From assembly GCA_003694805.1 (NCBI GenBank), contig RFJU01000099.1:1-44334 (forward strand): a stretch of 44,334 nt of DNA, written 5' to 3'. The DNA is from Candidatus Woesearchaeota archaeon. GTDB lineage: Archaea; Nanobdellota; Nanobdellia; Woesearchaeales; J110. The notes below the pieces were generated by a model. It saw only the letters and a program-made list of their open reading frames with translations, made no database searches and was not told the DNA's origin. Below are positions 14,183 to 23,983 of the stretch, one piece after another. Each line of letters opens with the position of its first letter. The first letter of the stretch is position 1. Made by a program: the position numbers and the translations under genes.

Positions 14183-14368
14183 TCAGCGTATTTTAAGGGC
14201 GTACTCGCCGTTTTTCTCTACTCCCATTTTATGGGCGATAACGCTTTTTTCCACATTGAGGAAGTGGATGAGTCCTTGAAACACTGTTGTGAAGCTGTCT
14301 TTCTTGCAGATGGGGCAGAGCTCGCCTTCAACAAAGATTTTGCAACGTTTGCATACTTTCTTTTTCAT
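14183..14368 (-). CDS. spt4: Transcription elongation factor Spt4 (RpoE'')
   Basis: This 61-residue protein is the zinc-binding partner of Spt5/NusG, which clamps RNA polymerase for processive elongation. The four zinc ligands are in CKRC and CPIC. The following SFTTVFQGLIHFLNVEKSVIAHKMG is the Spt5-contact sheet. Length is normal. It starts 15 bp after the RpoE' stop and in the same frame, separated by two TAG codons (14384-14386 and 14375-14377). Confidence 0.93.
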   Translation of the reverse strand: MKKKVCKRCKIFVEGELCPICKKDSFTTVFQGLIHFLNVEKSVIAHKMGVEKNGEYALKIR

Positions 14369-16879: not shown

Positions 16880-17725
16880 TTATCCTGTCTTTGCTTGTAT
16901 CGCGGCGACCTGACGATGTGCTTTTGCCAGGACGTCCTTGATCGTGTCTTTGGTGATGATGTTTGCCTCTCTTGCAAGCGCGAGGGACTCCGCCGCCGCG
17001 GTTGTCAGGAAGAGGCGGATTGTTTCTTTGGTTGGGTAGTGGATGAACATTGCCAGGTTAAAGCTTTCGCTCGCGGCTGCTGCGAAGTCGCGTTGGTACG
17101 CTTCTTCGTCGATGTCAAGGGTGTCTTTGGTGATGATTTCTCCTTCCTCATAGACTGCGATGAGGTCGAGGCCTATTTTCATCGGTTCAATGCCGAGTCG
17201 TGCAAGGATGCCTGCGAGCTTTTCGCTTACTTCCTCGCCTTCTTTGGCTACTACCGCGTCTGCCTTGATTGCTATTTTTCCGTTTTCAACGCCGGTTTTG
17301 ATGCCGAAGGCGCCGAGTTCTCCGATGATGGGGCCTGGGGCGAAGCTCGTTGGTCCTGCTGGGACGACGATGTCCGCCGGGGCGGTTTGGCCTGCTTTTA
17401 TGGGTGCGCTGGATTGTGATTTTTTAAGTGTTCTGAAGAGCGAGAAGGGGTTTTCCTTGGTGAAGATGAGCGCTGGCATGCCGCGAAGGTACGTGCTGAG
17501 TTGATCGATTCCTTCTTTTTTTGCTTGCTTGAACGCGAGGCGTATGAGTGTCTTCTTGCTCATGCGCATCTCGACGGTTCCCCTGAGCTTTTCCTTCATG
17601 GTCTGCAGCTGCTTGGCTGGAAGGTTTTGCAGGTTGACGACGCCAATGATAGGGTAGGCCTCTATCTTGGCGACAAGGTCTTCAATTGCCTGCTTTTTCC
17701 GCGGTTGAATTTTTGCAGCTTTCAT
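16880..17725 (-). CDS. rpl10: Ribosomal protein uL10 (P0), short C-terminus
   Basis: This 281-residue stalk base protein binds 23S rRNA and carries P1 dimers. The N-terminal L10 domain is clear (KKQAIEDLVAKIEAYPIIGV, MKEKLRGTVEMRMSKKTLI, YLRGMPALIFTKENPF), as is the archaeal insertion domain (AGPTSFAPGPIIGELGAFGI, VSEKLAGILARLGIEPMKIG). Helical P1-binding segments follow (ETIRLFLTTAAAESLALARE, KDTIKDVLAKAHRQVAAI). The protein ends there, without the acidic tail and LFG ending usual in archaeal P0 (about 330 residues). Its ATG overlaps the L1 stop as ATGA. Confidence 0.94.
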   Translation of the reverse strand: MKAAKIQPRKKQAIEDLVAKIEAYPIIGVVNLQNLPAKQLQTMKEKLRGTVEMRMSKKTLIRLAFKQAKKEGIDQLSTYLRGMPALIFTKENPFSLFRTLKKSQSSAPIKAGQTAPADIVVPAGPTSFAPGPIIGELGAFGIKTGVENGKIAIKADAVVAKEGEEVSEKLAGILARLGIEPMKIGLDLIAVYEEGEIITKDTLDIDEEAYQRDFAAAASESFNLAMFIHYPTKETIRLFLTTAAAESLALAREANIITKDTIKDVLAKAHRQVAAIQAKTG

Positions 17726-18372
17726 GAGAGCACCACCGGCTTGCTCATGGTGAGCTTGATTGCCACGTTTTTAATGTTCTCTTTCTCTTTGGGGAGGTGG
17801 TGGATGACTTGGTCGTATACGTAAAGGATGTTGTCAACCACTTCCTCTTCCGGCTGGCTCGCCTTGCCGATGGAGAGTTGGATTTGCGGTGATTTTTTAG
17901 CCATAATGCGCACGGTTTTTTGGAGTTTTTCCACTGTCGCCTTCACGTTTCCTTTCGGGGGAATGATGCATCCCGCTTTGGGGTTTGGCATTTTTCCTCG
18001 TGGTCCGAGGGTTCGTCCAAAGACTGCGGCGACGCGCTGCATGATGTTTGCTTGCGCAATGAAGTAGTCGTAGGTTGACGCGAGTTTCTTTGCTTTTTTC
18101 TTATCAGCGTATTCATCGAAGTGGGATGCTTCAACGGCGAAGTCGCAGTATTTTTTGGCGTCTTCCAAGAGTTCTGGGCCGACAAGGGCGCAAACCGTTA
18201 TTTTCCTGCCAATGCCGTGGTGGAGGTTGACGAAGAAGTCTACTTGGTCGGAGGGGTTTTTGAGATTGAGGTTTTTTAGGTTGATGATGATATCAACTGA
18301 TTGGTCAAAGTTGCGCTGGGGCGAGTCTTTCTTGAGTGCTTGAAGCGCTTTAAGAACCGTTTCCTTCTTCAT
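17722..18372 (-). CDS. rpl1: Ribosomal protein uL1
   Basis: This 216-residue protein forms the mobile L1 stalk at the E site. Family signatures are present: NFDQSVDIIINLKNLNLK, FVNLHHGIGRKITVCAL, VFGRTLGPRGKMPNPKAGCI and GNVKATVEKLQKTVRI. In many archaea L11 precedes L1; here L1 leads the operon and the upstream neighbour is divergent. A minus-strand TATA box at about 18445-18455 gives a leader of about 50 nt. That leader contains a UUCG-capped hairpin overlapping the ribosome site, and archaeal L1 is a known autoregulator. Confidence 0.96.
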   Translation of the reverse strand: MKKETVLKALQALKKDSPQRNFDQSVDIIINLKNLNLKNPSDQVDFFVNLHHGIGRKITVCALVGPELLEDAKKYCDFAVEASHFDEYADKKKAKKLASTYDYFIAQANIMQRVAAVFGRTLGPRGKMPNPKAGCIIPPKGNVKATVEKLQKTVRIMAKKSPQIQLSIGKASQPEEEVVDNILYVYDQVIHHLPKEKENIKNVAIKLTMSKPVVLS

Positions 18373-18396: not shown

Positions 18397-18602
18397 TGCT
18401 TGGCGGGGTTGGATGCGTGATCCTGGGTTGAGAACCGTGAACGTTTTTTTAAATCTTGTGGTTTTTCAGGCTTCTTGTTTTTCAGGCTTCTTCTTAACTT
18501 CCCCGTTTGGCGCGTTTCAGAGGGGCTGGTTGAACTTCGTACAAGGCAGCAGGTGTGCAACCGCTAAATTTTTGTAGTCATGAGCTGCTTCCCCGTCCAA
18601 AA

Positions 18603-19364
18603 ATGACGACGATGTTTGCGCTCCGGGCAAAGTGTGAAGATGCTATTCTTGCTTGTTCAGATCTGCAGGTTGAGATGTATTCGGAAAGGGGCACGTGCGT
18701 TAAGAAGCGGGAGCGTAAACTCGTTTCGGACCACGCCACAACCGTTTTTGGTTTGAAGGGGGATGTTGATCTCGACCTTGAAAGAGCGTTTTTAGGGGAT
18801 GTTTTTGGCGTGTACAATGGACGAGCATCTGAGCGCCGCTGTAGGCGCGTTGGGGACTTGCTCGCGGGGGAGCTTGAGAAGGAGAGCGGCTCTCGATGGT
18901 TTGCACCCATGAGCGAGTTTGGACGTGAGCAGCGAAGGAGAGGCACTCCTGCGTACGCGTTGCCGCAGCTCCTTCTCGTCACTAATCATCCTTCACTTTC
19001 CATGTAGGCCATTGAGTCATCGGGCAGGGTGAAGGTGAGGCGGTACGTTGGGGGTTTGGAGGCGGTCCTTCTTGAAGGGAGGGGTGAGAAGATAGTGGAG
19101 ACCTTCATTCGAAAAAGCCTTCGCGCACGTTAGGTCAGCCCCCTTGCTGTTGATTGTTCCGAACTCATCTACTTGGGCATGCAAGGCTTGGAGGCGGCGT
19201 CGAGGGATCTTGGCACGTCAGGGAGCGATTTGTTCATGGTGCTTCCGCATACCGTGATTGATCACGGGAGGGAATTGCTGCGAGCCATTTCTCAGGCGAA
19301 GAAGAGGGTTCGCCGGGCGCTTCAGCGAAGGTATTATTATAACGTGTATGGGAACAAAGAGTAG
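18603..19364 (+). pseudogene. Proteasome beta-like Ntn hydrolase with two in-frame TAG codons
   Basis: A single frame of 253 codons is broken only by TAG at 19005-19007 (codon 135) and 19131-19133 (codon 177). The N-terminus MTTMFALRAKCEDAILACSD aligns with the intact beta subunit encoded at 23279-23899: Thr after Met, DA(I/V)(L)A..D, then a Lys pair (CVKKRERKL) where the catalytic Lys falls. Later pieces fit the fold: DHATTVFGLKGDVDLDLERA, LPQLLLVTNHP, then after the first TAG AIESSGRVKVRRYVGG, and after the second LGMQGLEAASRDLGTSGSDL followed by DLFMVLPHTVIDHGREL. A TATA-like CTAAATTTTT at about 18564-18573 sits near leaderless distance. There are no frameshifts, TAA or TGA until the end. 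TAG is an ordinary stop elsewhere in the window, so recent inactivation is the conservative reading; amber readthrough is the alternative. Confidence 0.65.
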
Positions 19365-19477: not shown

Positions 19478-19528
19478 AGGGCGGTGTGCCTCATTCCCCA
19501 TCCTGCCAGGTACGTTGGCTCCCGCGTT

Positions 19529-19610
19529 GCCGCAGTCGCATAACCTGGTATTGCGCCTGGCTTGAGACCAGGTCCCTTACGGGATTCCCGGTTCGAATCC
19601 GGGCTGCGGC
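19529..19610 (+). tRNA. tRNA-Ser (anticodon UGA)
   Basis: This is an 82-nt type II tRNA. The acceptor stem GCCGCAG/CTGCGGC is perfect over 7 bp. The anticodon stem CCTGG/CCAGG encloses the loop CTTGAGA, giving anticodon TGA. A long variable arm (TCCC..GGGA) and the T arm CCCGG-TTCGAAT-CCGGG follow. The base after the acceptor stem is G, the archaeal serine discriminator, which with the long variable arm supports Ser over Leu. CCA is not encoded. A T6 run at 19612-19617 follows. Confidence 0.92.
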
Positions 19611-19611
19611 G

Positions 19612-19617
19612 TTTTTT
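19612..19617 (+). terminator. T6 terminator of tRNA-Ser
   Basis: Six consecutive T start one base after the discriminator, consistent with termination or 3' processing immediately past the tRNA. Confidence 0.55.
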
Positions 19618-19757: not shown

Positions 19758-20294
19758 TCACGCTTTGCGGGGGGTTGCGTGCTCTCGTGACGTGAGGTAG
19801 CGGTGCAAGTTGAGGTACGATTTGATGACGTCTTGAAGCTCGTTGCATCTGCGAATGGTTTCTGATTTCGCCGCGTCGACGTATCCTTTGCGAACAAATT
19901 TGTCCACGAAGATTCTGAAGAAGTAGAGGAGGGGCCTTCCTTCCCATTGTTTTTTGCGATCGGTATGGAGGTAGGCGTCGAAGGAGAAGAAGAGCTTTCC
20001 TTGCTGGAGCCTTCGCTTGACGCCGTCGATGGTGACGTCGACATCTTTGAGTTCTGAGGCAATCATGAACACGCGAATTTCTTCCTTGCAATAGTCGCTA
20101 AACGTTCGCCACGGCATGATTTCAAGCACGACTTGACGCCCTTTTGGCTCGACTTGCTCAAAATTTTTTATTTCGTTTTTGTTCCAGTGGTGTTCTTTGA
20201 AGAAAGTGTCAATGATTTTGTAGAGTTTTTGCAGGTTGAAGATGCCTTCGTAGCTGAATTCTTTGCCGTCGATAAGCGTGTATACTTCCGCCAT
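19758..20294 (-). CDS. Conserved-looking protein of unknown function (relative of 20363-20845)
   Basis: This protein has 178 residues with no signal or membrane helix. The N-terminus YTLIDGKEFSYEGIFNLQKLYKIIDTFF is a beta hairpin followed by a helix. A central mixed beta sheet contains VVLEIMPWRTFSDYCKEEIRVFM and DVDVTIDGVKRRLQQGKLFF. The C-terminal helix is rich in aromatic and basic residues (LYFFRIFVDKFVRKG, CNELQDVIKSYLNLHRYL). The layout (Y.G.F..LY, strands, K-DV.V...QG+..F, terminal helices) is repeated in the next upstream gene, so the two look like diverged duplicates. No family is recognised. It is probably co-transcribed with that neighbour, 68 bp apart. Confidence 0.75.
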   Translation of the reverse strand: MAEVYTLIDGKEFSYEGIFNLQKLYKIIDTFFKEHHWNKNEIKNFEQVEPKGRQVVLEIMPWRTFSDYCKEEIRVFMIASELKDVDVTIDGVKRRLQQGKLFFSFDAYLHTDRKKQWEGRPLLYFFRIFVDKFVRKGYVDAAKSETIRRCNELQDVIKSYLNLHRYLTSREHATPRKA

Positions 20295-20362: not shown

Positions 20363-20845
20363 TTAATACGAGCTCACATTCGTGTGCATGTTTAAGAATT
20401 TTTTTATTTCTGTGTGGAGGCGCAACGTGAGGTAGTGGAGGGTGTCTATGTGCTGAACGTCCTTTTCATTTTCTCTGAGCTTGTGCATGAGTTTACCGAG
20501 GGAGGCGGCGAGTTTCTCGTGGAAGTTGTTTCCCTTTTCTGGAAAGATTTCAGGGTTGCCTGCTGACACGTTGAAGCTGAGGTTGATTTCGAACCTTCCT
20601 TGCTGGAGGGTTTTTCCTTGTACGTGCACGTCTTTAACGTCCCAGAAATGCCAGTCGATAGTGATAAAGTAGGTGTAGTATTCGTCAACGTCTAGCTCCG
20701 CCTTCCACTTCAGTTCTGTTTCGTCCCATTTTGCTTTGTAGCGCACCTCGTCAACGTCGAAACGCCGCTTAATAAGCCAGTCTCGAACGAACCGGTAGAG
20801 CCCCTCCATATCAAAAACGCCCTTGTAGCGAATGAGAAAGCCCAT
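20363..20845 (-). CDS. Conserved-looking protein of unknown function (relative of 19758-20294)
   Basis: This 160-residue soluble protein starts FLIRYKGVFDMEGLYRFVRDWL. It continues with alternating strands rich in Tyr and Trp (ELKWKAELDVDEYYTYFITI, DWHFWDVKDVHVQG, LQQGRFEINLSFNV) and ends in helices with HEKLAASLGKLMHKL and LHYLTLRLHTEIKKFL. The same order of elements occurs in the downstream gene, pointing to an old duplication. A minus-strand TATA box (CCTTTTTATACC, about 20869-20880) lies 26 bp or so before the ATG, so the pair is transcribed from a leaderless start here. Function unknown. Confidence 0.77.
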   Translation of the reverse strand: MGFLIRYKGVFDMEGLYRFVRDWLIKRRFDVDEVRYKAKWDETELKWKAELDVDEYYTYFITIDWHFWDVKDVHVQGKTLQQGRFEINLSFNVSAGNPEIFPEKGNNFHEKLAASLGKLMHKLRENEKDVQHIDTLHYLTLRLHTEIKKFLNMHTNVSSY

Positions 20846-23278: not shown

Positions 23279-23899
23279 CTAGATTGTTGTTGTGATTGTT
23301 TTCTTGAGGACTTCGCGGTAGCCTTGCTTGTCAACAACAGCGACGATGACGCCGCCGCCGCTTGCAGAGTCTCTTTGCAGGGCTGCGTTGATTGCTTTGA
23401 CGGCGAGGTCGACTGCTTGCTGCGAGGTGAGGTCTTTTTTGTAGTTGGTTTCGAGAACGCCGTAGGCAAAGAGGCTTCCTGAACCGCTTGCGACGAAGTC
23501 TTCCGCTTCGCTGAGCGATCCGTCCATGTAGATGTCGTACAGCCCTGGCTTTTTATCGTATCCTCCGAGGAGGAAGTGCGTCACGCTGGGTATCATGCGG
23601 CGCACCATCCCATACACCCATCCTGAGAGGAGGTTGGCTGTTTCCTTGACGGTTGGGGCCCTGCCTGTCCGGATGGTTTGCAGCTGGAGCTCTGAGCGCA
23701 GGTATTTTGCGAGGAGTTGTATATCAGAGACTGACCCTGCCGTTGTTATAGCGATGGTGTCCGTCACAGGAAGGACTTTTTTGACGTGCTTATTCGCGAT
23801 GAAGTTGCCCGCTGTTGCGCGCATGTCTGCCGCGAGGACGACAGCGTCCTTTGCAATAATGCCTACAGTGGTGGTTCCTGTTTTCATGGATTCATTCAC
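23279..23899 (-). CDS. psmB: Proteasome beta subunit
   Basis: This protein of about 206 residues is the catalytic subunit of the 20S proteasome. A short propeptide (NESMKTG) precedes the nucleophile in TTTVGIIAKDAVVLAADMRA. The active-site Lys is in NKHVKKV, and the conserved late motif is SGSGSLFAYGVLE. The Ser/Asp site follows in QRDSASGGGVIVAVV. A GTG at 23899 is preferred because GGTGA stands eight bases upstream; a GTG at 23911 would add four residues. A palindromic TATA box GTTTATAAAC (23984-23993) precedes it. The gene ends in TAG. A divergent, interrupted relative lies at 18603-19364. Confidence 0.94.
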   Translation of the reverse strand: MNESMKTGTTTVGIIAKDAVVLAADMRATAGNFIANKHVKKVLPVTDTIAITTAGSVSDIQLLAKYLRSELQLQTIRTGRAPTVKETANLLSGWVYGMVRRMIPSVTHFLLGGYDKKPGLYDIYMDGSLSEAEDFVASGSGSLFAYGVLETNYKKDLTSQQAVDLAVKAINAALQRDSASGGGVIVAVVDKQGYREVLKKTITTTI

Positions 23900-23983
23900 G
23901 GTAATGCTCACCTAAGCTCTCGTTCCTCTCTTCTTGAGAACGTCTTGATCAGAACTCATAACAAAGAGCGAGAACGGATACGG

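Follow-up and report, generated by a model that had tools for sequence, protein, structure and literature searches.

The interrupted reading frame at 18603-19364 is in all likelihood a recently disabled copy, i.e. a pseudogene, of a dispensable accessory proteasome-like hydrolase with an N-terminal threonine, belonging to a sparse and divergent DPANN family; we assign this reading a probability of about 0.84. The frame lies on contig C99 of a Candidatus Woesearchaeota genome (1.21 Mb in 176 contigs), and this whole stretch of 44,334 nucleotides is referred to as the window. Translation confirmed the description in the earlier note of one frame, here 253 codons on the plus strand, that is interrupted solely by two in-frame TAG codons (19005 and 19131) and contains no frameshift. 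The terminal stop at 19362-19364 is a TAG as well. A base-shuffled region of equal composition would show at most two stops over 253 codons with P=0.0004. The relevant features are as follows.

17722-18372, minus strand: ribosomal protein L1 gene, divergent neighbour
18603, plus strand: ATG start (translation)
18603..19004, plus strand: N-terminal part (134 codons) of the frame for the proteasome-like hydrolase, carrying the Thr1/Asp17/Lys33/Gly47 equivalents (translation, alignments, full-length homology)
19005..19007, plus strand: first in-frame TAG, codon 135; homologues all have Trp/Tyr/Phe/His there; core strand of the model (translation, alignment columns, AlphaFold2 model)
19008..19130, plus strand: middle segment, codons 136-176, with a GRGE motif where the family has GSGS (translation, alignments)
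19131..19133, plus strand: second in-frame TAG, codon 177; variable, partly gapped column; loop after a helix (translation, alignment, model)
19134..19364, plus strand: C-terminal segment, comprising the Asp166 equivalent, the final helices and the closing TAG (translation, alignments, model)
19528..19612, plus strand: tRNA-Ser (anticodon UGA), downstream neighbour, no suppressor
23279..23911, minus strand: psmB, intact canonical proteasome beta subunit, a separate control gene (Pfam Proteasome, no internal stops, near-normal branch)

A TTTTTTTAAATC run near 18444, between the L1 gene and the frame, is a candidate for the TATA-like element of the earlier note and could equally well serve the divergent L1 gene. 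Further downstream, the proteins encoded at 19758-20294 and 20363-20845 (minus strand) have no Pfam match and resemble each other in length and aromatic-rich make-up; they are possible paralogues.

Searches of Pfam, NCBIfam and PDB sequences with the 253-codon product gave no match, and the N-terminal part as query against genome contigs and viral contigs returned no close relatives. Among 288 genomes of the order, one full-length homologue was found (24% identity, E=1e-9). In a pairwise BLASTP the product aligned to this homologue, L134, across the whole frame, spanning both TAGs (E=3e-16). L134 is an intact protein of 246 residues that matches Pfam Proteasome above the cut-off, and it served as bait to collect the wider family. 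Genome G149 of the same order carries a homologue. The weak matches L004-L006 and L009-L012 were for the most part put down to chance; the exception is L011, which coincides with a genuine member of the family, G143. L008 likewise coincides with a genuine member, G153. On the genome's own codon usage the frame ranks first of all six, albeit weakly, with 0.028 bits per codon (median of long open reading frames 0.18, 10th percentile -0.02). Judged from the sequence, the frame is a real gene because it matches an intact protein at full length across both TAGs; homology is decisive here and codon usage weak.

An AlphaFold2 model built on the family alignment reached a pLDDT of 86.6 and a pTM of 0.84, values that are silent on whether the protein is made. 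W or X stood in for the TAGs when the alignment, fold and tree were calculated, purely as a device of calculation. The best 50 PDB matches of the model in Foldseek were all proteasome core-particle chains. Residues T2, D20, K39 and G53, corresponding to Thr1, Asp17, Lys33 and the oxyanion Gly47, are invariant in alignment A1, the Lys column being unstable in other alignments, and the Asp166 equivalent is likewise retained. At the Ser129 site the copy studied here is the only one with Arg; nearly all relatives have Ser, L135 has Thr and L253 Leu. Homology, the proteasome fold of a beta sandwich flanked by helix pairs and the Thr1/Asp17/Lys33/Gly47 equivalents thus place the product in the proteasome-like Ntn-hydrolase family, although the Ser129 near the active site is missing. 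The identity proposed from the letters alone therefore holds, despite the empty profile searches.

The family occurs in about 12 of the 353 genomes of the order, and its other listed members are all open; none of them is split and none has a TAG at either site. Such a patchy distribution indicates that the family is most likely dispensable. No other genome of the same genus or family was present among the relatives found. Some members are longer (324-333 residues) and have extra sequence inserted behind the first helices, and tandem pairs of divergent proteasome-like genes are found in two genomes of the order (L053 838-2879 on G129:C45; G001:C21:46786-48075). An intact family gene adjoins a gene for an NFACT N-terminal domain protein (PF05833, RqcH/NEMF-like) at L135 5001-6855, L136 5001-6860, L139 1733-3992 and L247 1456-3355, of which L135 and L247 seem to represent one region; L139 seems to share one with G234. 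The NFACT homologue of the window's own genome lies on another contig (C131). This adjacency is a hint of a link between the family and ribosome-associated quality control.

The canonical psmA and psmB genes of this genome are intact. As the earlier note had stated, the interrupted gene is distinct from psmB: it occupies a separate locus, and direct BLASTP between the two products was not significant. The psmB of this genome is 48-59% identical to that of family-bearing relatives, and its branch measures 0.57 against a median of 0.34, in a genome sample different from that of the family tree. In the family tree, the 18603-19364 copy has the longest end branch (3.27 changes per column; family median 1.02), which carries long-branch and composition warnings. 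Together with the Arg at the Ser129 site, this long branch suggests that constraint may already have been relaxed before the stops arose. Disabling mutations in the presence of intact homologues elsewhere are a mark of a pseudogene, and both are found here, in the two TAGs and the open relatives.

The long branch also bears on an unlikely alternative, the best placed of those we considered, in which the stops stem from sequencing or assembly errors, or from a disabled allele within a mixed strain population, and the gene is intact in the species as a whole. The fragmented genome, probably metagenome-assembled, is in keeping with such an origin. However, an assembly error would hardly produce two separate changes to stop codons within 130 bases of otherwise undisturbed sequence, and the branch length would be left unexplained.

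At the position of the first TAG, the three nearest relatives have Trp; otherwise Tyr or Phe and once His are found, and psmB has Tyr. Opposite the second TAG the relatives show Lys, Ser, Thr, Asp, Arg, Gly, Leu or a gap. The model places the first TAG in a core strand and the second in a loop. Since the residue classes differ between the two sites, one reassigned meaning of TAG is not suggested by the alignments.

Two ambers alone had been considered notable in the earlier note, and this argument fails. Going by the codons that this gene contains, TAG results from about 50-53% of the nonsense changes possible in a single step, and the probability that both of two such changes are TAG is 0.25-0.28. 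The inference from ambers only is weak because roughly half of these changes give TAG anyway. The lack of indels mildly favours either young lesions or read-through.

Recoding was surveyed in 949 kb of the 1.21 Mb genome, including the window. Here 61 of 377 long open frames end in TAG, and the median open stretch past the stop is 25 codons for TAG, 29.5 for TAA and 22 for TGA. Global TAG recoding, already regarded as unlikely in the earlier note, is rejected, since open stretches past TAG are not longer than those past TAA or TGA. The supporting observation that TAG terminates several genes of the window is correct for rpoE', psmB and two pilin-like genes, but not for the zinc-ribbon gene (14183-14368, minus strand), which ends in TGA. 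Pyrrolysine decoding is likewise rejected, since the best PylS profile match scored 9.1 bits against a cut-off of 178. No tRNA with a CUA anticodon was found among the 30 matches to Rfam, in an ARAGORN run over the 949 kb that allowed introns, or in a custom cloverleaf scan. This negative result is not decisive, because tRNA-Trp and tRNA-Tyr were also missed and the tRNA inventory is incomplete. Two Rfam matches uncalled by ARAGORN, L089 and L093, look on visual inspection like Ala(TGC) and Arg(CCT). Introns of 17-55 bases are common in the tRNA genes here (L075, L082, L089, L090, L091, L092), and L089 also seems to have extra bases inserted around the T-arm.

The copy resembles its relatives to about the same degree on either side of the first TAG, with a ratio of 1.08 (0.84-1.10 in other members), which makes both stops recent compared with the divergence of the gene. 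The same equality, the kept Thr1, Asp17, Lys33, Gly47 and Asp166 equivalents and the absence of frameshifts speak against decay, since apart from its stops the gene would look functional. These properties, the lack of indels and the frame that is open on both sides could also be explained if the TAGs were read through inefficiently, by near-cognate decoding or by a CUA tRNA hidden in the gaps of the inventory, so that a little full-length hydrolase is formed. In bacteria, stop codons in frame within otherwise conserved genes are reported to be widespread, and read-through may occur at some of them (PMC7918605). Such read-through is possible but unsupported, and we consider it slightly less probable than an artefact: three methods found no CUA tRNA, PylS is lacking, open stretches past TAG are not extended in the 377 long frames, listed relatives have no TAG, the residue classes disagree and this copy evolves at an accelerated rate. 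Marginally more doubtful again is a regulated double amber read-through, which would yield small amounts of full-length hydrolase by an unrecognised mechanism. Separate translation of N- and C-terminal pieces that then associate is rejected as the least credible option: the N-terminal piece does carry the Thr1, Asp17, Lys33 and Gly47 equivalents and a TTG-start frame of 63 codons exists at 19173, but the break at codon 135 falls within a core strand in the model, an ATG start is missing from the middle piece and no split relatives are listed. Of the two outcomes left standing in the earlier note, a very young pseudogene fits the long branch and the Ser129 change, and local suppression gains no positive support from the tRNA, PylS, extension and residue-class results.

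For the preferred reading, a recent pseudogene, we propose the following course of events. The ancestral protein presumably lost Met1 and thereby exposed the catalytic Thr, as in proteasome beta subunits and their homologues. The lineage may then no longer have needed the enzyme, and constraint on the gene would have relaxed; intact psmA and psmB can cover general proteolysis. Two nonsense substitutions would have come next, ahead of any indel. No active enzyme would be expected from the present copy, because the first TAG alone cuts off the second half of the fold.

Hence, this is probably an ordinary, recent pseudogene, and exotic decoding is not supported. Two indel-free in-frame ambers look striking, yet in a gene of this kind about one quarter of double-nonsense lesions would be TAG-TAG, and recoding need not be invoked. 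Should the TAGs be decoded after all, DPANN archaea would provide an unusual example of stop-codon read-through. The family itself is a little-described group of DPANN proteasome-like proteins that Pfam detects only partly, and its NFACT (RqcH-like) adjacency in several genomes is a hint, open to testing, that it may act in protein quality control.

The gene shares with pyrrolysine and amber-suppression genes an in-frame TAG within an otherwise conserved frame, but differs from them in that neither PylS nor a CUA tRNA was found, listed relatives lack the TAG and the residue classes at the two sites differ. Nonsense codons in a coding frame are likewise a feature of the bacterial genes with conserved in-frame stops (PMC7918605), whereas the stops described here are common to no relative. 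Canonical archaeal psmB (PF00227) has the same fold and catalytic layout; the 18603-19364 gene, in contrast, lies at a different locus and has neither a Pfam match nor a propeptide. Fuchs, Alva and Lupas (2021) described 22 subfamilies of proteasome-like proteins, and several of these are archaeal with a scattered occurrence (PMC8665760). With the divergent homologues of that study, WPH, PHI, ACC and others, our gene shares the proteasome-like fold, the N-terminal Thr after Met, Asp17/Lys33/Gly47, the long C-terminal helix, a patchy occurrence in archaea and the co-occurrence with a canonical proteasome; unlike them, it has two TAGs, and Arg stands in place of Ser129. In some relatives (324-333 residues) a long insertion follows the first helices and is similar to that of PHI, a resemblance by description. 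Likened in this way, by description only, the DPANN family fits the subfamily landscape of that study (PMC8665760).
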